Source of the DNA: Akkermansiaceae bacterium
Lineage (GTDB): Bacteria > Verrucomicrobiota > Verrucomicrobiia > Verrucomicrobiales > Akkermansiaceae
Assembly: GCA_030725745.1 (NCBI GenBank)
Contig: JANRFH010000023.1
Span: 1-64,000, forward strand
Reading direction: 5' to 3'
DNA length: 64,000 bases
Both the position numbers and the translations under genes were made by a program. The notes under the pieces were generated by a model. It was not told the DNA's origin and did not search any database. It was given only the letters and a program-made list of their open reading frames with translations. Below, piece after piece: positions 8,248-21,624 of the stretch (position 1 is its first letter; every line of letters begins with the position of its first letter).

Positions 8248-8296
8248 ACTTCCCGTGCGGTGCACGAGGGAAACGACCGGTGCCATTCACTTTGCC

Positions 8297-11200
8297 ATGG
8301 CATCACCCGACTCGACATCAAAGGTTCAGAAAATTTCCGCATCCACTGTAAAGCGTGGATCATGGTTGTGCGCATGCTCACGATCGAGCTGCGCGAAGGC
8401 CTCCCTGTTTCTCTCTGCAACGCTGAATCTGTGGCCATTATTTCCGATTCACAGCGCCATGGCTGCTGGCGAAATGGTATGGGATCCATCGTTCATCGCC
8501 ACGGAAAATCTTTTCATATGGCCGCCTGCGCTCGAGAGGCCTCTCGTCTATCCCTTGCCAGGACGTCTCACAAACGCGGAATTTTTCCGGCAGATTAGGC
8601 TCGTCTCGCCAGCCACTGAGGAAAATGAGGAGATGCCATGGATTCCCACGGATCTCGGCCCCATAGCCCCGCCGGACGGTATTCCGCTTCTGGGTAGCCC
8701 TGCTGGTCTAGCTATGATGGAGCAAGCGGTAGGCACGGGCATCATCGTCGGCGAGGTCTCAGATGCCACCACGCTCGATCCTATCGTCGGTGCCATGGTG
8801 GAAATAGTCGGCACAGGCCGCATTTCCGAGACCGATGCACAAGGGCGCTTCCAGTTCCAGGATATGCCATCGGGAACTTTCGATATCGAAGCCACGCAGT
8901 TGGGCTATTTCACCGATAGGACGGTCATCACCGTCATCGAGGGCTCGCCCTCGGAAGTCCGCTTTGGACTGCGTGTGAAGCCCACGGATGGCAGTGTCAC
9001 TGAATTCACACTGGAGGAGGAGACGGTAGTCGGCGAATACAATGGTGATTCAGCTGGGGATTTGTTTTTGGATCTTCAGTTAACCTCGAGCATTGCATCA
9101 GGCATCAGCAAGGATGACTTTTCCCGATCTGGCATTGGAGATGCAGGAGACGCGGTTTCCAAAATTTCCGGGGCGAACATCGTTGGTGGAAAATACGCCG
9201 TCGTCAGGGGACTTGGTGATCGATACTCAAACACGCTGGTCAACGGGGCACTGATTTCATCAGCTGATCCCACCCGGAAAGCGGTGCAACTGGATCTTTT
9301 TCCGAGTGATCTCCTTGAGTCGATCTCCATCTACAAGACCTTTAATCCGGAGCTTCCTGCGGAGTTTGCGGGAGGGACTGTCTCGATCAAAACACTCCAG
9401 TTCCCTGAGGAACGTGTCCTTAAAGTCGAATACGGTCGGAAGTATAACACAAACCTAGACGGGGATTTCTACACCTCGGGTGATGATCTTGGGTATTTCG
9501 GACAAGTCGATACAGCGCTACCTGATACGGTTCCTCCGCTCGGGCAGTTCGAATCAGGCCCGACAAGGAGAGTGCCGAGTCCCACAGATCCTCAAGGTCA
9601 GGAAGCGATAGCCAATGCCACCGCCCTCCATTTGAGCTCCCTGCTCAGACCCACCCGTGGAAGCGAGAAGATTCCCGAATCCTTCGCAATCACCTTTGGT
9701 GACACGTTCAACCTCACTGAAGAACTTGAAATGGGTGTAGTGTTCGCAGGGACTTCATCCAACGGAAGTTCGGTAAAACGCGATGTAGTTGTCGGCAGAA
9801 GCCTAAATTCGGGGCCGGACAACGTATCGGGATCGAGCGACGATTTTCTGAACCGAACCCAAGTGGAAGACCGCTACACTTCCTCGGCTGGCTATGGGGT
9901 ACTCGGTTCACTCGGTTTCCGCATGGGTGACAGGCACAGCATCAGTTTTACCGGCTTCCAGAACTACTCGGCCGAGGATGAAGTGACACTTGCGAGAAGA
10001 ATCAATGACAACACCTCCGGAAGCGGTCAGTTCGCAGACTTCGCCGGCCCCGGAAGCCTGCCCAGTGGTGCCCTGCAATCCACTCCGTTTGGAGCGACTG
10101 CGGCCACTTTTCAGGCTTTGGACAATATCACTCCGCTGAGAAGAACGCTGACCCTGAAGCAAGCGGAAGGACATCACGAGTTTGGAGACGAGGACGCACC
10201 ATTTGAAATCGACTGGCTGTATTCCCTCAGCGATGCAGTGGAGGAAAGACCCGGAACCCGTACCACTTTCTTCTCCCAACTGGATTTCACCGATCCTCGC
10301 ATTCAGGATATCACGGGTGCGGTCTTCGATCCGTCCCTTGGGGAAATCCTGACTCTTTCCGATGTCTTCGGAATCAACCCCGCGCTGAACCAGACGTTCC
10401 GGGAAACCTTGAAAACCACCGAGTCATCCACAAACCGACGCCTTGACCTGACATTGCCGATTTTTTCCGATGATGATGAAAATTCTTTCAAAATCAAAAT
10501 CGGAGGAAATGACTTCGAGAAAAACCGCGAAGTGAGAGGTCGCTTCTTCACCTACAACATCGGGCAACCCTTGAACGACCGCCTCGCGACTGAAAATGGC
10601 GGGCAGTTCGGCATCGATTTCCTCGAAGGTCTCAATGGTCTTGTTGATCCGAACGGTGATCCGATTTTCAACGGGTTCGCGAACAATAACCGCTCCGACG
10701 GAATTTTCATCCAGGAGAACACCACTTCCGGAAACACGGTGCGGAACGTGGACGCATCTACGGAGCTTTCCGCACTATACATGCAGGGCAATATTGTTTT
10801 CGGACGCTGGGAAGTCATCGCAGGAGCGCGCTACGAATCGGAGGATAGAACCTTCGAGGTTCTGCAGGGACTGAACCCCGCTGGAACCGTTGTTCCGCGG
10901 ACGACCATTACCAATGATTATGTCCTCCCCGGCATTACCATCACCAGATCGTTCGGGGATGATGAGGAGTTCCTTCTGACCTCGGCGTGGTCGCGTACGG
11001 TCGCGCGACCCACATTCTTCGAGTTCGCTCCGATCCGGACGGTTGATCAGGCTTCCGGAGATGTCTTTCAGGGAAATCCAAATCTCGAAGACACGCTGAT
11101 CGACAATTTCGACGTGCGTTGGGAATGGAAGCCGGATGCGGAATCGCAGCTCGCAATCAGCGCATTCCACAAATCTCTCGACTCTCCGATTGCCCAGGCG

Positions 11201-11710
11201 TTTAACCTCGGCGACAAAACCTTCATTAACGGTGAGAAGGGATCTCTCCAGGGGATCGAACTGGAAGTCCAGAAACGTTTTCTGGAATATTGGACCGTCA
11301 CATCGAATTTCACTTTCATCGATTCCCAGCTCGAATTCCAACAGCCGCCGAGCGGACTGGTATCGACTACCTTTGACGGCCAGCCCAACTACATCTTCAA
11401 CTGTGCGCTCGGCTGGGCTGATGACGAATCGGGACTCTCCGCTACCCTAAACTACAATCTGACAGGTTCTTACCTGACCGCTGTTCCTCTGGGAGCCAAC
11501 GAGCCACCCGTGCGACGCGAAGCCTACAACCAGCTTGATCTGATTATCCAGAAGAAGATCGAATTCGATCATGGTGTCGGAATCGTCACTCTTAGTTTCG
11601 GGAACTTGCTCGATTCCACAGATACTGAAGTGTTCGACGGCACTGAACTGACCTTCCGCTCTTTCAAACCCGGAAGATCTTTCGGCCTCAAGTTCGACTA
11701 CGAATTCTAA
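8297..11710 (+). CDS. TonB-dependent outer-membrane receptor with carboxypeptidase-regulatory-like domain
   Basis: This outer-membrane gated barrel imports a bound substrate using TonB energy. I choose the ATG at 8297, giving 1137 residues and a long signal region ending near AMA-A at residue 56. After a proline-rich linker, a CarboxypepD_reg-like beta domain spans about 149-228, a TonB-box-like EETVV lies near 242-246, and the plug runs 245-368 with VRGLGDRYSNTLVNG and PELPAEFAGGTVSIKT. The barrel follows and ends in the aromatic FGLKFDYEF expected for an outer-membrane protein. The secreted beta-helix gene begins 44 bp downstream and a TonB energizer operon comes next. The substrate is not readable; phosphate or a phosphorylated compound is inferred from the porin in the cluster. 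Confidence 0.93.
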   Translation: MASPDSTSKVQKISASTVKRGSWLCACSRSSCAKASLFLSATLNLWPLFPIHSAMAAGEMVWDPSFIATENLFIWPPALERPLVYPLPGRLTNAEFFRQIRLVSPATEENEEMPWIPTDLGPIAPPDGIPLLGSPAGLAMMEQAVGTGIIVGEVSDATTLDPIVGAMVEIVGTGRISETDAQGRFQFQDMPSGTFDIEATQLGYFTDRTVITVIEGSPSEVRFGLRVKPTDGSVTEFTLEEETVVGEYNGDSAGDLFLDLQLTSSIASGISKDDFSRSGIGDAGDAVSKISGANIVGGKYAVVRGLGDRYSNTLVNGALISSADPTRKAVQLDLFPSDLLESISIYKTFNPELPAEFAGGTVSIKTLQFPEERVLKVEYGRKYNTNLDGDFYTSGDDLGYFGQVDTALPDTVPPLGQFESGPTRRVPSPTDPQGQEAIANATALHLSSLLRPTRGSEKIPESFAITFGDTFNLTEELEMGVVFAGTSSNGSSVKRDVVVGRSLNSGPDNVSGSSDDFLNRTQVEDRYTSSAGYGVLGSLGFRMGDRHSISFTGFQNYSAEDEVTLARRINDNTSGSGQFADFAGPGSLPSGALQSTPFGATAATFQALDNITPLRRTLTLKQAEGHHEFGDEDAPFEIDWLYSLSDAVEERPGTRTTFFSQLDFTDPRIQDITGAVFDPSLGEILTLSDVFGINPALNQTFRETLKTTESSTNRRLDLTLPIFSDDDENSFKIKIGGNDFEKNREVRGRFFTYNIGQPLNDRLATENGGQFGIDFLEGLNGLVDPNGDPIFNGFANNNRSDGIFIQENTTSGNTVRNVDASTELSALYMQGNIVFGRWEVIAGARYESEDRTFEVLQGLNPAGTVVPRTTITNDYVLPGITITRSFGDDEEFLLTSAWSRTVARPTFFEFAPIRTVDQASGDVFQGNPNLEDTLIDNFDVRWEWKPDAESQLAISAFHKSLDSPIAQAFNLGDKTFINGEKGSLQGIELEVQKRFLEYWTVTSNFTFIDSQLEFQQPPSGLVSTTFDGQPNYIFNCALGWADDESGLSATLNYNLTGSYLTAVPLGANEPPVRREAYNQLDLIIQKKIEFDHGVGIVTLSFGNLLDSTDTEVFDGTELTFRSFKPGRSFGLKFDYEF

Positions 11711-11754
11711 ATCCCAAACCAATAGGAAATCACTCCACAAAATACAAAAGCACT

Positions 11755-14700
11755 ATGAAATATAAAACGATATGCATCCTTGCCGGGCTGTCGATATCCC
11801 CGCTTTTCGCGGCGGACGTCACAGTTACGGGAGACATCACGTCCAACACCACGTGGACGGCCGACAATACCTACATTATTGAGAAGCCCATTTTCATCAC
11901 CGGCGGTTCCACGCTCACCATTGAGCCGGGCACTCTGATCCTCGGTGACGAGAACACTACGGAGGGAACCTTCGGATCGCTCATCGCGACTCGCGGCTCC
12001 CAGCTCATCGCCGACGGCACTGCCGACAAGCCTATCGTCTTTACCGCACGCGCCGAGCGCGACGGCATCGCTGGGGATCCTAGCGAGAAACCTGATCCTG
12101 CACTTGGAGACGCATCCTTCTGGGGTGGCGTGATCCTCCTCGGTAACGCCCAGGTCAACAAAATCACCGGTTCCACCAACGATGGTGAGGCTCGTATCGA
12201 AGGCTTCCCGGTTGAAGCGAATACCACCAATACCACCTACGGCGGTGGCGCGACTCCGAATAATGCCGACAGCAGCGGAATCCTCCGCTACGTCTCCATC
12301 CGTTTCGGTGGTTTCCAGTTTGCCGCGAACAACGAGATCAACGGCCTCACCCTCGGTGGTGTCGGCAGCGGCACGATCATCGAAAACGTCGAGGTTATTT
12401 CGAATTCCGATGACGGCGTCGAGTTCTTCGGCGGAACGGTAAACACCAAACGCATCGCGGTGGCCTTCTGCCAGGACGAGAGCTTCGATATCGACCAAGG
12501 TCATTCGGGCTTCCACCAGTTCTGGTTCTCCATCCAGAGCGACGACCCGGCTCTTGGTGACTTCGGCGGAGAGTGGGACGGCGGCAACGGCGATAATGTC
12601 AATCTCGCACCGTTCACGCTTACCAAAATCTATAACATGACCATGCTCGGAACGGGCTCGACCGCTTCCGGCAGCATAGACGACGGGATCAACCTCTCGG
12701 ACAACTTCGCGGGAACCCTCGCCAACTCGGTGATCCACGATTTCAACGGTGCCGCGCTCACCACGCAGAGCGACGGTGTCAACAGCCCGAAACCGAACTT
12801 CCTCAACAACACGTGGGGAGTCTTCGGCGGCGGCGCCGGAATCGTTCCAAACATCGGAGGAGCAGGTGCCACCGATCCAGCAGGATCCGACAACAGCGCC
12901 GTCGGAACCGATCCACTTCTTCGTGGAATAAGCCGCACGCCGAATGGTGGGCTTGATCCACGTCCTGCGAACAACAGCCCGCTTCTGGGTGCAACACTTG
13001 CCGATTTCCCATCGGATGCACCTCCGGGCTTCTTCGAAGCCGTCGATTACCGCGGAGCTTTTGAAACAGCGGAATCCTGCAACTGGCTCCGTGGCTGGAG
13101 TTACCTTTCACAGGCTGGTTACCTTGGCTCTGAAGATGTGAACGTCACTGCCGATATCACGTCCAACACCACTTGGACGGCCGACAAAACGTATATTATT
13201 GAGAAGCCTATTTTCATCACTGGCGGTGCTACGCTCACTATCGAGCCGGGCACTCTGATCCTCGGTGACGAGAACACTACGGAGGGAACCTTCGGATCGC
13301 TCATCGCGACTCGCGGCTCCCAGCTCATCGCCGACGGCACTGCCGACAAGCCTATCGTCTTTACCGCACGCGCCGAGCGCGACGGCATCGCTGGGGATCC
13401 TAGCGAGAAACCTGATCCTGCACTTGGAGACGCATCCTTCTGGGGTGGCGTGATCCTCCTCGGTAACGCCCAGGTCAACAAAATCACCGGTTCCACCAAC
13501 GATGGTGAGGCTCGTATCGAAGGCTTCCCGGTTGAAGCGAATACCACCAATACCACCTACGGCGGTGGCGCGACTCCGAATAATGCCGACAGCAGCGGAA
13601 TCCTCCGCTACGTCTCCATCCGTTTCGGTGGTTTCCAGTTTGCCGCGAACAACGAGATCAACGGCCTCACCCTCGGTGGTGTCGGCAGCGGCACGATCAT
13701 CGAAAACGTCGAGGTTATTTCGAATTCCGATGACGGCGTCGAGTTCTTCGGCGGAACGGTAAACACCAAACGCATCGCGGTGGCCTTCTGCCAGGACGAG
13801 AGCTTCGATATCGACCAAGGTCATTCGGGCTTCCACCAGTTCTGGTTCTCCATCCAGAGCGACGACCCGGCTCTTGGTGACTTCGGCGGAGAGTGGGACG
13901 GCGGCAACGGCGATAATGTCAATCTCGCACCGTTCACGCTTACCAAAATCTATAACATGACCATGCTCGGAACGGGCTCGACCGCTTCCGGCAGCATAGA
14001 CGACGGGATCAACCTCTCGGACAACTTCGCGGGAACCCTCGCCAACTCGGTGATCCACGATTTCAACGGTGCCGCGCTCACCACGCAGAGCGACGGTGTC
14101 AACAGCCCGAAACCGAACTTCCTCAACAACACGTGGGGAGTCTTCGGCGGCGGCGCCGGAATCGTTCCAAACATCGGAGGAGCAGGTGCCACCGATCCAG
14201 CAGGATTCGGTAACAGCTCCGTAGGAACCGATCCTATGCTTGTTGGCATTAGCCGCGTTCCAAACCGTAGTCTCGACCCGCGTCCTCAGCTCGGAAGCCC
14301 ACTTTACAGCTCCACGCTGTCCGGGTTCCCGACAGATGCTCCGGCAGGATTCTTCACTGAAGTGGAATATCGCGGTGCATTCGGTGGCAACAACTGGCTG
14401 AACGGCTGGTCTTACCTTTCGAAGGCTGGTTATCTTTCCGGTCTTCCAGATGCTGACGCTTCTGGGACCACCGGCGGCAATTCGGGTGGTGGTGACCTTA
14501 CCGACACAGATGGCGACGGCATCTCCGACGACCTCGAGAACACCGCAGCACTCATCGCCCTAGGCTTTAACGCTGCTGTGAACAACGTATCGCCAACGAA
14601 CCTGTTCTCGGACATCTACACCTCATCCTCCATCGTGGATCTGAGTGCAGACGACATCGTGGTTCAGAAGACTGGCAACACAGCTACCCTCAACATTCCT

Positions 14701-14820
14701 GTTGAGAGCTCAGTGAACCTCGTGCCTCCGTTTACTCCGGTGGGCAACGCGACAATCACGATCCCGAACGTTCCTGTTGACAAGGAGTTCTACCGGTTCC
14801 GCATCCCATCCGCGGACTAA
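11755..14820 (+). CDS. Secreted parallel beta-helix protein made of two near-identical halves
   Basis: This 1021-residue protein has a signal peptide of about 19 residues (PLFA-AD). It contains two copies, 440 residues apart, of a domain with repeats such as GATLTIEPGTLILGDEN, ISNSDDGVEFFGG and INGLTLGGVGSGT, typical of right-handed beta-helices. Each half ends with NWL-x-GWSYLS-x-AGYL. The C-terminus carries an EF-hand-like DTDGDGISDD (917-926) and a beta-sandwich-like tail. This family is often found beside TonB-dependent receptors in Bacteroidota and Proteobacteria; a role as surface partner or substrate-capture protein is inference. It is 44 bp after the receptor and ends at a strong terminator. 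Confidence 0.85.
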   Translation: MKYKTICILAGLSISPLFAADVTVTGDITSNTTWTADNTYIIEKPIFITGGSTLTIEPGTLILGDENTTEGTFGSLIATRGSQLIADGTADKPIVFTARAERDGIAGDPSEKPDPALGDASFWGGVILLGNAQVNKITGSTNDGEARIEGFPVEANTTNTTYGGGATPNNADSSGILRYVSIRFGGFQFAANNEINGLTLGGVGSGTIIENVEVISNSDDGVEFFGGTVNTKRIAVAFCQDESFDIDQGHSGFHQFWFSIQSDDPALGDFGGEWDGGNGDNVNLAPFTLTKIYNMTMLGTGSTASGSIDDGINLSDNFAGTLANSVIHDFNGAALTTQSDGVNSPKPNFLNNTWGVFGGGAGIVPNIGGAGATDPAGSDNSAVGTDPLLRGISRTPNGGLDPRPANNSPLLGATLADFPSDAPPGFFEAVDYRGAFETAESCNWLRGWSYLSQAGYLGSEDVNVTADITSNTTWTADKTYIIEKPIFITGGATLTIEPGTLILGDENTTEGTFGSLIATRGSQLIADGTADKPIVFTARAERDGIAGDPSEKPDPALGDASFWGGVILLGNAQVNKITGSTNDGEARIEGFPVEANTTNTTYGGGATPNNADSSGILRYVSIRFGGFQFAANNEINGLTLGGVGSGTIIENVEVISNSDDGVEFFGGTVNTKRIAVAFCQDESFDIDQGHSGFHQFWFSIQSDDPALGDFGGEWDGGNGDNVNLAPFTLTKIYNMTMLGTGSTASGSIDDGINLSDNFAGTLANSVIHDFNGAALTTQSDGVNSPKPNFLNNTWGVFGGGAGIVPNIGGAGATDPAGFGNSSVGTDPMLVGISRVPNRSLDPRPQLGSPLYSSTLSGFPTDAPAGFFTEVEYRGAFGGNNWLNGWSYLSKAGYLSGLPDADASGTTGGNSGGGDLTDTDGDGISDDLENTAALIALGFNAAVNNVSPTNLFSDIYTSSSIVDLSADDIVVQKTGNTATLNIPVESSVNLVPPFTPVGNATITIPNVPVDKEFYRFRIPSAD
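11923..12886 (+). repeat. Exact 964-bp direct repeat, copy 1
   Basis: This stretch inside the beta-helix gene matches 13243-14206 by line-by-line comparison, with no difference seen and a period of 1320 bp. On the left, differences begin at 11922 and accumulate; on the right, they begin at 12887. Flanking parts of the two 1320-bp units are similar but diverged. Confidence 0.9.
13243..14206 (+). repeat. Exact 964-bp direct repeat, copy 2
   Basis: This is the second copy of the 11923-12886 sequence, in the same orientation and reading frame. Identity at synonymous positions means recent duplication or ongoing gene conversion rather than protein-level selection alone. A misassembly or collapse at this site is also possible. 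Confidence 0.9.
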
Positions 14821-14902: not shown

Positions 14903-15685
14903 ATGCGCCTTATTTTACCAACCATCCTGCTGGGATTTTCCCCGCTACTGCAAGCCCAGGAGCCTGCCATCACCCCCACGGAAGAGCTGAAGGTCACCAT
15001 CTCGCAATGGGTGGAAACGATGCGCCAGATCCAAGAGGAGGAAAACGAATGGACGCGCGATCAGGAGGTTCTCGTTAATTACCGCGAAGGCCTCGAGAAA
15101 GAGATTGAGAGCCTGAAGGTTAGCATCGCCGATGCGAAGACGAAGAAGGACGGTTCAGACGCGGATTCGCTCAAGCAAACGCAGGAGCGCGATCGTTATG
15201 TTGCGGCCAAGGACGAGCTATCCGCCATGGTGCGGAGCTTGGAGGAAAAGATGATCAAGAAGCTGCCTCTCATCCCTAATCCACTGCGTATGGAGCCAAA
15301 GGTTGCTCAGGCTATCGAGGATCTTGAACGCGATATCAAGCTGCCCGAAGACAAGCGTGATGAAGGCGTCTCCAAGCGCCTCCTGAACCTTCTGAACCTC
15401 GCCGCAGAGATCGAAAAATTTCAACAAACCGTCGTCCTCCGCCAGGAGCTCCGCAGCGATTCGGACGGCAGGGAATACAACATGAAGGTGGTCTATTTCG
15501 GCCTCGCCATCGCCTATGCGGTGAATGACGACGGCACCCTAGCGCTCATCGGCCAGCCCACCGAAAAGGATGGCTGGAAATTCGAAGAGCATTCCGATCT
15601 CGCCGATGAAATCACGGGTCTCATCAACTCGACGACGGGCGACGCTGACGCCGCTTTCGTAAAACTTCCATTTTCACAGCCATAA
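14903..15685 (+). CDS. DUF3450 periplasmic coiled-coil protein
   Basis: This 260-residue protein has a signal peptide of about 18 residues (LQA-Q) and a long heptad-rich coiled coil at about 30-120. The segment LPLIPNPLRMEPKV (126-139) and the C-terminal YFGLAIAYAVNDDGTLALIG match DUF3450. In Vibrio and Shewanella TonB2 loci a DUF3450 protein precedes the long MotA/TolQ/ExbB-like component, as here, with a 3-bp gap. Its exact role in energizing TonB is not settled. Confidence 0.85.
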   Translation: MRLILPTILLGFSPLLQAQEPAITPTEELKVTISQWVETMRQIQEEENEWTRDQEVLVNYREGLEKEIESLKVSIADAKTKKDGSDADSLKQTQERDRYVAAKDELSAMVRSLEEKMIKKLPLIPNPLRMEPKVAQAIEDLERDIKLPEDKRDEGVSKRLLNLLNLAAEIEKFQQTVVLRQELRSDSDGREYNMKVVYFGLAIAYAVNDDGTLALIGQPTEKDGWKFEEHSDLADEITGLINSTTGDADAAFVKLPFSQP

Positions 15686-15688
15686 TCC

Positions 15689-17140
15689 ATGAGTCGCATC
15701 ATCCGCAATACACTGTTCCTCGGCTTGCTTTCCTCGGTACTCTGCCACGCGCAGTCACCCATCGAAAGTGCCAAGGCCGACCTTGATCAAGCTGTCAAGG
15801 AACTCGGTGCCACCAAAGGGGAATACTCCGATCTGCGCCGTGCGCTTTACCGGGATATCAACCGCCTTGATGACGAGGCGCTGAAGCTCGGCAAGGAGCT
15901 CCGCGACCTCCAGCGCGAGGAGGAGCGCAGGCAGGCGACGAACAAGACGCTCGAACGCGAAGTTGAGGGAAGGAAAACGGATTTCAACTATTCCTCCGGC
16001 ATCCTCGCACAGTATTCGAAGGCTCTCGCATCCCGCCTCCATCCTGCGGAAAACCAGATCTATCTTGAAAAGCTCAACACGCTTGATCAGAAAGCCGCCT
16101 CTGCGGTGGATGATCCGAAGCTCGAACTCGCCGAGCGTATCAAGGCGCTTGATCTCGGCATCGACCGCATCGGTGAGGTCGCGGGCGGCCACCGTTTCGA
16201 TGGGAAGGCGCTGCGCAACGGCAGTGAATCCGTCGAGGGCAAGGTGCTTGTCGTGGGGCCGTCGGTGTTCTTCGCACAGAAAAACGGTGACTTTGAAGGT
16301 GTCGCCACCTATGCCGAGACCGGCACGATGATGCCCACCGTTGTGGCGATCAAGGGCTCGGACGACGAGATCTCCAAGGTGGTGATGGAAGGGAAGGGCG
16401 AGCTGCCTTTCGACGGCACCATGGGCAAAGCCATTGAGGTCGAGGCAGCGAAGGAAGGCCTTTGGGAAACGGCGGAAAAAGGCGGCTACGTGGGTCATGC
16501 AATCCTTGGCCTAGGACTCATTTCCTTCATCATTGCAGGCTTCAAGGTCTGGGAGGTCTCGAAATTCAAGGTGCCGTCCCGCCGTGAGCTCAACCAAATC
16601 CTCGACGACCTTCTCTCAGGAAACAAGGAGTCGGCGATGCGCAAGGCTGCTGCCATTCCCGGCGAGGCCGGTGAGATGGTTCAGATCGGCGTGAAGAATT
16701 TCCATGAGAAACGCCGTGTGCTTGAGGAGTCGCTCTTCGAGAAAATGGTCACCATCAAGCCACACCTTGAGCGCTTCCTCCCGTTCCTTGCCCTGACAGC
16801 AGCCGCAGGCCCGCTGATGGGTCTGCTCGGAACGGTTCTCGGCATCATCAAAACCTTCCAGGCCATGGCGCTCTATGGCTCCGGTAATACCAAGAATTTC
16901 ACCACGGGTATTTCCGAGGCACTCATCACCACGGCTGAAGGTCTCATCGTCGCCATTCCGGTGCTAGTCGTGCACGGCCTGCTCAAGAGCATGTGCAAGG
17001 CGAAATTCGGTGAGATCGAAGGCGCTGCGATCGCTTTGGTCAATGGCACGACGGAACGTGGGAAGGGCAAGCCGCAGCCGGAAGACGACGGCCCTGAAGA
17101 GCCGGATGACGACATCGACCTCGTCCCAACCTCCGCCTGA
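15689..17140 (+). CDS. TtpC-like long MotA/TolQ/ExbB proton-channel protein
   Basis: This 483-residue protein has a signal peptide (CHA-Q near 21), a periplasmic coiled coil at about 25-115 and a soluble beta-rich segment to about 260. The ExbB-like membrane part has helices near 267-289, 364-391 (TAAAGPLMGLLGTVLGIIKT) and 405-432 (TTGISEALITTAEGLIVAIP). The last two carry the MotA/TolQ/ExbB signature. The tail is Glu/Asp-rich. This architecture is that of TtpC, the extra component required by TonB2 systems. It starts 3 bp after the DUF3450 gene and precedes exbB, exbD and tonB. Confidence 0.9.
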   Translation: MSRIIRNTLFLGLLSSVLCHAQSPIESAKADLDQAVKELGATKGEYSDLRRALYRDINRLDDEALKLGKELRDLQREEERRQATNKTLEREVEGRKTDFNYSSGILAQYSKALASRLHPAENQIYLEKLNTLDQKAASAVDDPKLELAERIKALDLGIDRIGEVAGGHRFDGKALRNGSESVEGKVLVVGPSVFFAQKNGDFEGVATYAETGTMMPTVVAIKGSDDEISKVVMEGKGELPFDGTMGKAIEVEAAKEGLWETAEKGGYVGHAILGLGLISFIIAGFKVWEVSKFKVPSRRELNQILDDLLSGNKESAMRKAAAIPGEAGEMVQIGVKNFHEKRRVLEESLFEKMVTIKPHLERFLPFLALTAAAGPLMGLLGTVLGIIKTFQAMALYGSGNTKNFTTGISEALITTAEGLIVAIPVLVVHGLLKSMCKAKFGEIEGAAIALVNGTTERGKGKPQPEDDGPEEPDDDIDLVPTSA

Positions 17141-17157
17141 TTTTCAAGTCTCCACAC

Positions 17158-17766
17158 ATGATAGGCATTTTCAAAGACGGCATCGATCTCTTCCTTTCGG
17201 GAGGTTCGATCATGTACATGCTCGGTGGTGTGGCCTGCATCCTCTATGCATACTGCTTTGCCGCTCTTGCCTATGTGAACAAGGGAAATCTTAACGACAA
17301 GGATTCCGATAAGTGGGAGAACTGGATCGAGAATCCTGATGCTGCGAAAGGCAGGCTCGGCGAAGCGATCACCTATGTGCTCCACGGCCCCACACTTACG
17401 GCAAAGACCGTAGGTCGACGCTTCGATGAGATCCGACTCAGCATCGTTTCCAACATCGACCGCCGCCTTCTAGTGATCAATACCCTCGTCGCCGCAGCAC
17501 CGCTTGCCGGCCTGCTGGGGACGGTGGTGGGGATGCTCGCCATGTTTACCGGCCTCGCACAAGGCACTGGGCCATCAGGTATGGAGAAAGTCGCCGACGG
17601 CATGCAGCAGGCGCTCATCACTACACAGACGGGGCTCACCATCGCCCTGCCCGGCCTCTTCCTCGGCCTCATCGTCAAGTCCAAGCGCGACCGCATCGCT
17701 GCGACTCTCGTGAGGCTGGAGTCCATGATTCTCAGCGCGCGATTCCGGCGCGATTCGCAACTCTGA
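17158..17766 (+). CDS. exbB: ExbB proton-channel subunit
   Basis: This 202-residue inner-membrane protein has three membrane segments, near 17-40, 108-132 and 145-172. The family core APLAGLLGTVVGMLAMF and the following GMQQALITTQTGLTIALPG are present. With ExbD it forms the channel that couples proton flow to TonB. It stands between the long TtpC-like gene and exbD with gaps of 17 and 21 bp, and is much shorter than that relative, as in other TonB2 loci. Confidence 0.93.
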   Translation: MIGIFKDGIDLFLSGGSIMYMLGGVACILYAYCFAALAYVNKGNLNDKDSDKWENWIENPDAAKGRLGEAITYVLHGPTLTAKTVGRRFDEIRLSIVSNIDRRLLVINTLVAAAPLAGLLGTVVGMLAMFTGLAQGTGPSGMEKVADGMQQALITTQTGLTIALPGLFLGLIVKSKRDRIAATLVRLESMILSARFRRDSQL

Positions 17767-17787
17767 TCTTTTCCTACAACCATCCCT

Positions 17788-18195
17788 ATGTTCGGCCGCA
17801 ACCTTTCCGATGAATCCGATGAACCCGTCCACGTTGACCTCTCGTCGATGATCGACTGCGTTTTCATCCTGCTCATTTTCTTCATCGTCTCCACTGTCTT
17901 TGTTGAGGAAACGGGGGTCACGGTGAACAAACCGGATGTCGGCGGCGCCAGTGCGCTTGAGAAGAATTCCATCCTCCTTGCGGTCACCTCCGAGGACAAG
18001 GTTTTCTACGGCGGCGAGAGTGTGGGTGTGCAGGGGGTCATCGGGAAAATCAAACCGCTGCTCACCGAGACTCCGGACATGTCGGTGATCATCCAGGGTG
18101 ACAAGGATGCCACGCACGGCCTTGTCCAGCAGGTGCACGGGCAGGCGATCCTCGCCGGAGCCCAGAAAGACAGGATTTCAGTTTCCACCAAATAG
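17788..18195 (+). CDS. exbD: ExbD energy-transduction subunit
   Basis: This 135-residue protein has a short cytoplasmic N-terminus, one membrane helix at about 22-40 (MIDCVFILLIFFIVSTVFV) and a periplasmic domain. Asp23 in the MID motif corresponds to the proton-carrying aspartate of ExbD/TolR. The C-terminal IIQGDKDATHGLVQQV segment is typical. Its stop is 3 bp before the tonB start. Confidence 0.93.
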   Translation: MFGRNLSDESDEPVHVDLSSMIDCVFILLIFFIVSTVFVEETGVTVNKPDVGGASALEKNSILLAVTSEDKVFYGGESVGVQGVIGKIKPLLTETPDMSVIIQGDKDATHGLVQQVHGQAILAGAQKDRISVSTK

Positions 18196-18198
18196 AGC

Positions 18199-18849
18199 AT
18201 GTCACGCCACGTCTATCGCCCGCCCAGAGGAACCTATACCGGTGTTTTCGCCGTTATCGGTGGCCTGTTGGCGACGATTGCCGTCTTCATCGCCATACCG
18301 CTCTCGCAGAAGCTCAGTGTGATGTTCAACAAGAATCAGGCCGAGCCGCCGGAGATTGTCGTAGAGCCTCCGGAGGAAATGGATTTCGAAACCGAAGAGC
18401 CTCCCGAAGAGCCGGAGGAGGAACCTGAGCCGGAGGAGATGGTTGAGGAATCCACTGAACTTGACCTTGGGATTGATCTCGGTGACCTCACCGCCGGAAC
18501 GGGTGGCGGGTTCACCATGGAGATCCCAGACTTCGGCCTGAAGGGCGGCGACGACGCCTTCGGCGGTGATCTCGACGGGCCGCCGCAACCGGTCAGCAAG
18601 GTTCCCCCGACTTATCCCAGCTCGCTTCTGAGCAAGGGTGTTGGTGGAAGGGTTCTCGTCACGGTCACCATTGATGCGTCTGGCAAAGTCATTGGAACCA
18701 GCATCAAGCAAAGCTCCGGCCAGCCGGAACTCGACAAGGCGGCCATCAATGCGGTGAACCGCTGGAAGTTCAAACCCGGCACCAAAGGGGGCAAGAAGGT
18801 GACATCCATCGCCGTCGTCCCATTCAATTTCGAAGTGAAGAAAAGCTGA
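18199..18849 (+). CDS. tonB: TonB energy-transducing protein
   Basis: This 216-residue protein spans the periplasm and drives outer-membrane receptors. The anchor helix is at about 14-37, a Pro/Glu-rich linker at 49-83, a Gly-rich stretch at 98-127 and the C-terminal TonB domain at 130-216, with PTYPSSLLSKGVGGRVLVTV and NAVNRWKFKPG. The linker is almost purely acidic (PPEE, EEPEPEE) and lacks the Lys-Pro half found in E. coli TonB. The receptor at 8297-11710 is the obvious partner. Confidence 0.93.
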   Translation: MSRHVYRPPRGTYTGVFAVIGGLLATIAVFIAIPLSQKLSVMFNKNQAEPPEIVVEPPEEMDFETEEPPEEPEEEPEPEEMVEESTELDLGIDLGDLTAGTGGGFTMEIPDFGLKGGDDAFGGDLDGPPQPVSKVPPTYPSSLLSKGVGGRVLVTVTIDASGKVIGTSIKQSSGQPELDKAAINAVNRWKFKPGTKGGKKVTSIAVVPFNFEVKKS

Positions 18850-18862
18850 AAATTTCCCCATC

Positions 18863-20308
18863 ATGTTACGCACCATACTCGTCCTCGGCCTGCTTGCGGG
18901 AGTCTCCCCGGCACAGCAGATCATCCCGCCGTCCAATCTTTTCCGTGATCCCGGTTTCGTCCGTGATTTCGTCGGCAGCTACGGTTTCCTCTCCGATGTG
19001 GAGCCGAAGGTATCCAAGGAAGAGCAGGAGCTGCTTGTGACCGTGAGCGAACTCTTCGGCGAGTCACGTTTCCGCGAGGCGGAGCAGGAGATCGTCCGCT
19101 TCGTGCAGATCATCGAGAATCCGACCGATCCCGAAGTGCCGAAGGGTGAGATCAGCCCGGCGCTGGTTTTCGTTTTGGGCAACCTCTACTTCCAGGCAGA
19201 CCGCACCGACGAGGCGCGCCGAGCCTTTCTGGAAGCCATCCGCCGTTTCCCGCGTTTCCGCCGTGCCTACACGAATCTCGGCTACCTCTACATCTCGAAA
19301 AACATGACTGATGAAGCGCTACCCATGCTTCAGAAGGCGGTCGAACTCGGGGAAAGCTCCCCACGTGCCTACGGCTTGTTAGGCTATTGCCACCTATTGA
19401 AAAAGAACGCCCTCGCCGCAGAGAACGCCTACCGCCAGGCCTACCTCATGGACCCGAGTTCGCGCGATTGGAAGCTCGGGCTCGCCCAAGCACTGATGGC
19501 TCAGGACAAATTCGCCGAGGCCTCGAGCCTCATCGGATCGCTCATCGAGGAAAATCCGAACGACAAGCAGCTCTGGCTCCAGCAAACCAACGCCCTGCTC
19601 GCCATGGAGCGCAAGGAAGAGGCCATGGTGAACCTCGAAGCCCTGCGCTTCAAAGGCCTTGCCGATGAATCCAACCTCAACCTCCTCGGCAACCTCTACA
19701 TGGACAGCGATGAGCCTCAGCTCGCGCTCTACGCCTACCTTGCGGCGATGGAAAAAACCGAGAAGCTCGACATCGACCGCACCCTCAAGTCTGCGAAAAT
19801 CCTCAGCGACTACGGCTACCCAGACAAGGCTGACGCTTTCATCCTCAAGGTCAGGGACAAGGCCGGTGTTTCCATTTCCGACGAAGACAAGGTGCGGCTC
19901 ATGCTTACGGAAGTCTCCGTGGCACAGGCGAAAAAACAGCCGGATCGTGTGGAAGGATTGCTCAATCAGCTCTACGAGTTGCAGCCCACCAACGGGGAGG
20001 TGCTCCTTGAAATGGCGAGGCACAAGGATCTTCTTTCCCGCGAAGAGCAGGATGAGGAAAAACGTGCAGAGCTTGTTGTAAAGGCGCGCACCGACTTCCA
20101 AATGGCCGCCCGCATTGAAGACGTCGCCTACGCCGCGAACCTCGGCCTCGGCCAGATGCTCGTGCGCGAACAGCGCTATCAGGAAGCACTACCTGCACTC
20201 CAGGCCGCACTTGCGGTGAAAAAGAGTGATAGCCTCGAACAATACGTGTCGCGCGTGCGCCGCGCCGCCGATCGCCAGGAAGACCGCGCCGCCAAGGAAG
20301 AGTCATGA
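18863..20308 (+). CDS. Periplasmic TPR protein of the TonB cluster
   Basis: This 481-residue protein has a signal peptide ending near SPAQ (about 18) and at least five TPR units between about 60 and 300, for example ALVFVLGNLYFQADRTDEAR and RAYTNLGYLYISKNMTDEAL, then a further helical region to the end. A TPR gene in this position after tonB is common in TonB2-type loci. It probably scaffolds the complex in the periplasm. The porin start overlaps its stop (ATGA at 20305-20308), so the two are translationally coupled. Confidence 0.87.
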   Translation: MLRTILVLGLLAGVSPAQQIIPPSNLFRDPGFVRDFVGSYGFLSDVEPKVSKEEQELLVTVSELFGESRFREAEQEIVRFVQIIENPTDPEVPKGEISPALVFVLGNLYFQADRTDEARRAFLEAIRRFPRFRRAYTNLGYLYISKNMTDEALPMLQKAVELGESSPRAYGLLGYCHLLKKNALAAENAYRQAYLMDPSSRDWKLGLAQALMAQDKFAEASSLIGSLIEENPNDKQLWLQQTNALLAMERKEEAMVNLEALRFKGLADESNLNLLGNLYMDSDEPQLALYAYLAAMEKTEKLDIDRTLKSAKILSDYGYPDKADAFILKVRDKAGVSISDEDKVRLMLTEVSVAQAKKQPDRVEGLLNQLYELQPTNGEVLLEMARHKDLLSREEQDEEKRAELVVKARTDFQMAARIEDVAYAANLGLGQMLVREQRYQEALPALQAALAVKKSDSLEQYVSRVRRAADRQEDRAAKEES

Positions 20309-21624
20309 GAATTTCACCCGCACATGCCCTGCTTCTGCTAGCTCCTTTCGCGCATGCGAACGAGGCGCTGGACGTGCTCGAGGGCAAGATCGATGCAAAC
20401 AGCGTTGTCCTGCCGCCACCGCCCTACAAGGAGGGTGCGGAAGGGGAGGCGGGCGAAGAGGAAGTCGGCGAGTTGATTTACCTCGAACCCGAGTGGGCAC
20501 CGAGTCCGCTCGATTCCATCTGGTCGCGTTCCGTCCTCTACGATTCCACAGCGAATCCATGGGTGCAGCAGGTCGCCATCACCGGCTACTTCGATTTCCA
20601 AGGAAGCTTCGGTCAGGCGGAAACGGATGCCTCCGGGCTCACCCCCGCACGCAATACGGATCTGGACGGCACACGCACACGTCGTGCTCGCCTTGGGGCG
20701 AGGATCCGTGCCTTCAACAACACCGAGATCGAGGCCATCGGAGAGTTCGCCGGAAGCGACGAATACAGCGGTATCGAAAGGCTCAAGGCCTACACACAGC
20801 TCAGCGATACAACCGGTATCACCTACGGAAAATTCCGCCCGAACTTCGGAACCGAATCGCGCACCGAGCAGCAGCTTTCTCCATATTTCAACCGCACGGC
20901 CACCACCGACATGTTCGCACCTGCGAGTTCACTGGGAGTGAGCATCCATCACGCGGGCAAGGATTTCGACTATGATGTGGGCTGGTTCTCGGGCGATTAC
21001 AGCGCGGATCTTCCGTCGGTGGAGGGTGATGGTTTCCTGAATCTCAGCATCTCCCGAACGACTGTGGAGAAAAACGGCGACTCGCTCGCCCGTGTCCGCT
21101 GGCATGCGGACTACATCCACAATTTCGATCCCGGAAACACGAATCCCGCCGGGTATAATCTCGCCGGGCAGCTATCCGCAAACGGCGCACAATTCGTACA
21201 GAACCCCGCCTACCGCCACCTTTTCTCAACCGGGTTTGCGATCGATTCCGACCGATATGCGGTCACCGCTGATTTCCAGCTAGCCAAAGGCAATACGACC
21301 GCATGGGGCCTGTCATTAGGCGGTTCGTATTGGGTGATGCCCGGCACCTTGAAACTGGTCGGACGCTACCAATATGCAGGTACGGATGATGCGCGCGCCA
21401 TCGTCACCACTTTCGGAAATTCCGGCGGCTTGCGCTACGACGATTCCCCGTTTTTCACCGGCGACGAATACCATTCCTTCTACCTCGGAGCGAACCTCCA
21501 CCTCTACAAGGACGGCCTCATCCTCCGCAATGGCCTGGAATACTCCATCCTCAACGACGATGTCGGCAATTCCTTCAACACCGAGGCCTTCACATGGCGC
21601 ACCGGCGCATCCATTTCCTTCTGA
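20305..21624 (+). CDS. Phosphate-selective-porin-like outer-membrane protein
   Basis: This 439-residue protein has a signal peptide (FAHA-N near 18), a Pro/Glu-rich N-terminal segment and a barrel from about 80 to the C-terminal FTWRTGASISF, which ends in phenylalanine. RARLGARIRAFNNTEIEAIG and the run ITYGKFRPNFGTES with SPYFNRTA resemble OprO/OprP-type porins. Phosphate specificity cannot be proved, since many members carry other anions or sugars. Coupling to the TPR gene ties it to the TonB operon. Confidence 0.82.
   Translation: MRISPAHALLLLAPFAHANEALDVLEGKIDANSVVLPPPPYKEGAEGEAGEEEVGELIYLEPEWAPSPLDSIWSRSVLYDSTANPWVQQVAITGYFDFQGSFGQAETDASGLTPARNTDLDGTRTRRARLGARIRAFNNTEIEAIGEFAGSDEYSGIERLKAYTQLSDTTGITYGKFRPNFGTESRTEQQLSPYFNRTATTDMFAPASSLGVSIHHAGKDFDYDVGWFSGDYSADLPSVEGDGFLNLSISRTTVEKNGDSLARVRWHADYIHNFDPGNTNPAGYNLAGQLSANGAQFVQNPAYRHLFSTGFAIDSDRYAVTADFQLAKGNTTAWGLSLGGSYWVMPGTLKLVGRYQYAGTDDARAIVTTFGNSGGLRYDDSPFFTGDEYHSFYLGANLHLYKDGLILRNGLEYSILNDDVGNSFNTEAFTWRTGASISF

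Follow-up and report, generated by a model that had tools for sequence, protein, structure and literature searches.

Sequence comparison indicates that a predicted beta-helix gene has very probably undergone intragenic concerted evolution, with homologous exchange between two old tandem units acting separately in each lineage. The gene lies in the window (the whole 64,000-nucleotide stretch of DNA analysed here, belonging to genome G000), and its features and surroundings are listed in Table 1. Unit copies are more alike within a genome than between genomes, the duplication is older than the split between G000 and G004 (a same-genus species with a one-contig genome), and the pattern recurs in separate lineages, making this a clean, testable case of homogenisation within a single bacterial gene.

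Table 1. Features of the two-unit beta-helix gene and of its neighbourhood in the window
Feature	Position	Strand	Remarks
Two-unit beta-helix gene, 1021 aa	11755..14820	+	Open frame; N-terminus signal-peptide-like by eye
Gene layout: N-terminus, unit 1, unit 2, DTDGDGISD-type linker, C-terminal module	11755..14820	+	
Unit 1, 440 codons	11815..13134	+	Predicted right-handed beta-helix, then own C-terminal tail
Unit 2, 440 codons	13135..14454	+	Protein 92% identical to unit 1; different C-terminal tail
Homogenised core copy 1, 964 bp	11923..12886	+	
Homogenised core copy 2, 964 bp	13243..14206	+	Identical to copy 1
5' flank of unit 1	11815..11922	+	Partner 13135-13242, dS 0.97; groups by genome
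Unhomogenised unit 1 tail	12887..13128	+	Groups with G004 unit 1 tail
Unhomogenised unit 2 tail	14207..14454	+	Groups with G004 unit 2 tail
Linker and C-terminal module	14455..14820	+	Has stand-alone matches in other genus proteins
TonB-dependent receptor: CarboxypepD_reg, Plug, OMP_b-brl_3	8255..11710	+	Pfam
Energising cluster: DUF3450 (TtpB-like), MotA/TolQ/ExbB protein, second ExbB, ExbD, TonB, TPR protein	14903..20308	+	
439-aa protein ending the cluster	20305..21624	+	Porin-like by eye only

At an offset of 1320 bp, or 440 codons, the two core copies (11923-12886 and 13243-14206) match over 964 bases without a mismatch, and they form the only exact direct repeat of at least 25 bases in the window (direct repeats were searched). 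Homology runs past both ends of the core, with 19 differences across the 108 bp of the 5' flank and approximately 40% on the 3' side. The earlier note had described 964 identical bases, synonymous positions included, between diverged flanks, and had proposed counting the synonymous differences between the units; the offset comparison confirms the description, and the count gives 0 differences at the 230 synonymous sites of the core. The flanks show dS values of 0.97 (5', 36 codons) and 1.2 (3', 78 codons, dN 0.31) between the units, so that chance does not explain the identity of the core, nor does protein-level selection by itself. Strong selection that keeps the units identical without recombination is thus almost certainly not the explanation: purifying selection on the protein is indeed strong, with a core dN/dS of 0.12 between species, but approximately 55% of synonymous sites differ between species against none between the units. 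The beta-helix gene has a single locus in G000, which is 95% complete. Judged by its gene content, the window may come from Verrucomicrobiota.

The gene of G004 also carries two units, which share exact runs of 320, 356 and 405 bp (1081 matching bp) split by two 1-bp gaps. Whole units are 92.5% identical in DNA within G000 and 93.5% within G004, compared with 77% between the two genomes. With site patterns in the four-unit alignment given as species : paralog (unit) : cross, we observe a phylogenetic flip along the unit: columns 1-1090 (the core) show 228:1:1, grouping by genome, whereas columns 1091-1350 (the last ~250 bp) show 4:28:1, grouping by unit position (Fisher, 3e-32 for the contrast). 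Trees of the same units with G028 as outgroup follow this pattern, the core tree recovering the G000 unit pair at 98/97 and the G004 unit pair at 100/100, and the tail tree recovering the unit-1 pair of G000 and G004 at 90/93 (not starred) and the unit-2 pair at 99/98. In AU tests, the tail rejects the G000 pair (p = 7.7e-5) and the core rejects G000_u2+G004_u2 (p = 0.0022); the core does not reject G000_u1+G004_u1 (p = 0.168), although the likelihood of that arrangement falls by 521 units. The two species also have in common an insertion specific to unit 1. A core that groups by genome joined to a tail that groups by unit indicates that the duplication predates the G000/G004 split and that the core was homogenised separately in each lineage. 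Of the two origins proposed by the earlier note, recent duplication or gene conversion, the second therefore stands, as conversion or homologous exchange between old tandem units, and the first does not: recent duplication is ruled out for G000 and G004 by tails that group by unit, and the flank dS also speaks against it.

The 5' 108 bp of the G000 units group by genome, yet their dS is near 1, and by sequence this stretch reads as an older homogenised tract that has since decayed. Between G000 and G004 the unit 1 tail has a dN of 0.082 and a dN/dS of 0.048, with dS near saturation; its conservation across species, set against a dN of 0.31 between units, suggests that the two tails have different jobs. 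In unit 2 of G004 (L031 4657-6352), the two single-base gaps relative to unit 1 leave the sequence between them out of frame, which is either a sequence error or the mark of a decaying copy.

The following course of events would account for these patterns. An old duplication would have produced two tandem beta-helix units in one gene, and homologous recombination between them, by gene conversion or unequal exchange, would overwrite the solenoid part of one unit with that of the other; with this happening separately in each lineage, the units of one genome would resemble each other and differ from those of other species. The tails of approximately 240 bp, the first leading into unit 2 and the second into the C-terminal module, would have diverged beyond the reach of overwriting, with selection probably maintaining the difference, and this would explain why the tract stops at almost the same point in both species. 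Given the whole-codon offset, exchange could also change the number of units, to one, two or more, without loss of the reading frame. The unit spacings observed (1320, 1341, 1470, 1506 and 1515) are all multiples of three.

Searching 73 genomes of the genus, including the window's own, we found matches in 27, and 22 locus genomes were retained after leaving out G003, G009, G018, G041 and G055 (short or weak matches). In 10 of the 22 no contig end falls within the gene; half of these carry one unit (G005, G012, G028, G046 and G103) and half two (G000, G004, G021, G037 and G101). The single unit of G028 may, judged by eye, be a recombinational deletion. The units of G037 are 97.2% identical in DNA, with 1273 bp exact, and those of G101 are 93.7% identical, with a longest run of 297 and a dS of 0.14, which by sequence looks like an aged version of a homogenised core. 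Near-identical unit ends are also found at contig ends in the fragments of G014 (99 bp exact) and in pieces of G052, where runs of 28+98+98 and 20+104+23 bp are separated by single differences. The units of G021 are 76.5% identical and not homogenised. G075, from another family of the order, carries a single 2546-aa frame with five units (L033 6059-12700). These are 68-77% identical in DNA, and the protein tree places units 1 and 3 on one branch and units 2, 4 and 5 on a second, as would arise if units had been copied in pairs. The diverged units of G021 and G075 indicate that homogenisation is not constant. Across species, with one genome each, the number of units per gene is thus 1, 2 or 5.

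Outside the G000/G004 pair, the age of the duplication relative to species splits varies. The patterns for G014/G021 are mixed (23:25:11 in the 3' piece, 30:11:6 in the 5' piece), with 0:10:1 in the last tail block and 11:0:0 in one block of the 5' piece, and G021 unit 2 joins G014 unit 2 at 96/94 in a tree without G014 unit 1. For G052/G101 both pieces group by genome, at 67:1:0 and, in the tail piece, 33:0:1, so that separate duplications are possible for that pair. An independent, very recent tandem duplication in each species, with no conversion, would likewise fit the whole-unit protein tree, in which units group by genome in G000, G101, G037 and G075, and the five intact one-unit genes of the genus; we nevertheless regard it as very unlikely as a general explanation, since the G000 and G004 tails group by unit position and the unit-1-specific insertion is common to both species. 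Separate homogenisation of old units is established for G000 and G004 and is likely in other species.

An exact 964-bp repeat is difficult for short reads, and the earlier note had raised an assembly problem as an alternative. We observe a contig end inside the gene in 12 of the 22 genus genomes, against 3.2 expected for 3 kb (P = 3e-6), and inside the neighbouring receptor gene in 0 of 20 (Fisher, 7e-5; G024 and G100 were left out as their receptor gene lies outside the fetched stretch), with P values that are rough because the expectation comes from contig counts and rounded genome sizes and the genomes are related. This excess of contig breaks fits hidden near-identical units, for which there is sequence evidence in G014 and G052 only; strain mixtures could also break contigs at the gene. 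A graph assembly that flattened differing cores or set the wrong number of units is, however, an improbable source of the pattern. The 5', middle and 3' contexts of the repeat are distinct, near-identical units are also present in the one-contig genome of G004, G101 and G021 show graded versions, and flattening would not yield cores that differ between species. Judged from the assemblies, an assembly problem is therefore unlikely as the sole cause, although in the window short reads could have flattened a few differences or hidden an extra unit. The repeat suggests a reason for the frequent breakage of this gene in drafts, and unit counts from public assemblies are not to be trusted without long reads.

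Structure prediction gives unit 1 the fold of a right-handed parallel beta-helix. An AF2 model built from 36 sequences (L063 and L064 left out of the alignment) has a pLDDT of 80.6 and a pTM of 0.88, with 35 residues under 50. A first model from 7 sequences was unreliable (pLDDT 49), and its Foldseek list was set aside. Against the retained model, the 50 VIA matches listed, many of them beta-helix proteins, have Z scores of 22.6-18.2; the best of them (Z 22.6 to 20; alignments of 250-290 residues with 9-14% identity) include a pertactin complex, NosD, alginate epimerases and tailspikes, all of which we take to be right-handed beta-helices. Foldseek with the same model found nothing that reached E 0.001; its best hit had E 1.3e-3, and TM-scores were low. 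Sequence searches with unit 1 returned 0 Pfam families and 0 PDB matches, while Pectate_lyase (Pfam) was found in 5 of 36 family members (best E 0.00095) and Beta_helix (Pfam) weakly in 1 of 27 (E 0.59); none of 6 proteins had a PHROGs match at E 0.01. Rejected candidates were a kinesin light chain, the sole PDB match of the profile (E 2.4), and three weak hits that fell short of the curated threshold: CEL_III_C with the entire protein (E 3.5e-4), dinitro_DRAG (E 0.003) and FG-GAP in 2 of 27 family members. The secreted beta-helix of the earlier note thus holds as a fold, by prediction for unit 1, while secretion is indicated only by a signal-peptide-like start recognised by eye.

The solenoid strands of the model stop at residue 337, residues 341-370 are poorly predicted, and 38 of the 50 listed VIA matches stop at model residues 360-369. 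The identical core stops at unit residue 357, close to the end of the solenoid, so that the exchange tract would correspond roughly to the solenoid, and the unexchanged tail to a linker or cap. An exchange boundary visible in the sequence thus lies near a structural boundary of the predicted solenoid. Downstream of the units, the C-terminal part (14455-14820) has matches of its own in genus proteins that are otherwise unlike this one (G041, G101:C12, G009 and G003); it has no NCBIfam match and could be a sorting or anchoring module used by several proteins.

The receptor that the earlier note had placed beside the beta-helix gene is supported by Pfam as TonB-dependent, and the neighbourhood is conserved within the genus, where a receptor upstream and DUF3450 downstream recur with exceptions. 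The second ExbB/ExbD are unmatched as separate genes in seven genomes (G001, G002, G005, G012, G037, G044 and G103), and in G046 the contig stops 1.9 kb downstream, with no DUF3450 match. The five-unit gene of G075 also has a receptor upstream, and on a planctomycete contig TonB-like and TPR sequences adjoin a relative of the family. No receptor or cluster match was found beside 9 same-order relatives (flanks of ~1.5 kb) or 4 Flavobacterium relatives (flanks up to 10 kb), which counts against a role tied to the receptor. The beta-helix family often adjoins TonB receptors. The 439-aa protein (20305-21624), with no Pfam or NCBIfam match, is also the last member of the cluster in many relatives.

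By Pfam, the window cluster is a Ttp-type set (DUF3450, ExbB-type, ExbB, ExbD, TonB and a further protein), and the same set is present in relatives. We take its TPR protein to be TtpD, and the full Vibrio gene order is likewise our assumption. Its likeness to the TonB2 system of Vibrio vulnificus (TtpB2, TtpC2, TtpD2) lies in the association of DUF3450 with ExbB, ExbD, TonB and further proteins; in that species TonB2-driven iron uptake requires TtpB2, the DUF3450 protein, as well as TtpD2 (PMC6957404). Here, unlike in V. vulnificus, a receptor and a beta-helix gene precede the cluster. A comparable pairing is seen in the haem system in which HxuA, a right-handed beta-helix surface protein, serves the TonB-dependent receptor HxuC (PMC4873976). 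By analogy, the likeliest role of our protein, at about an even chance, would be that of a secreted or surface partner gathering substrate for the adjacent TonB receptor. The window unit differs from HxuA in having no PDB sequence match, and HxuA is exported by a two-partner system, whereas no such partner was matched among the nine window proteins scanned. A further scenario, in which the two solenoids stay identical because they have to work as a matched pair on the receptor, the number of units is a fast in-frame recombination switch varying within populations, and the diverged tails are where exchange stops, is speculative and rather doubtful.

Concerted evolution is a known process. It is described for internal modules of PKS/NRPS genes (PMC4256081), which resemble the present case in that tandem intragenic modules are homogenised per lineage by internal recombination and diverged parts can escape. 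The present case differs in that the homogenised units are two beta-helices in a TonB-linked protein and the boundary at the tail is sharp and common to two species. PMC12863079 reports no recent conversion between its giant genes and suggests homogenisation across strains. None of the papers listed by our literature searches was recognised as treating this beta-helix gene family or the homogenisation of its units. Recombination between homologous segments of a surface-type protein also recalls the antigenic variation of vlsE and msp2/p44, which the earlier note had suggested. A device with recombining cassettes is nevertheless extremely improbable: unlike those systems, G000 (95% complete) has no silent cassettes or second locus that we could find, and exchange makes the copies alike, the outcome being uniformity.

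In IMG/VR, 237 of 304 candidate stretches encode relatives of the beta-helix family. Among 80 of the 237 (L073-L152), a receptor match lies upstream in 12 and ExbB upstream in 2 (several of these loci nearly duplicate one another), and the receptor at L116 shares its main Pfam domains with that of the window. At L083, one of the loci checked, a type IX sorting-signal protein lies downstream. A bacterial and not a viral origin is thus possible for some of these contigs. In the window itself, two antisense open frames of 343 and 316 aa (11707-12738 and 13108-14058, - strand) mirror the two units and are probably a by-product of codon use.
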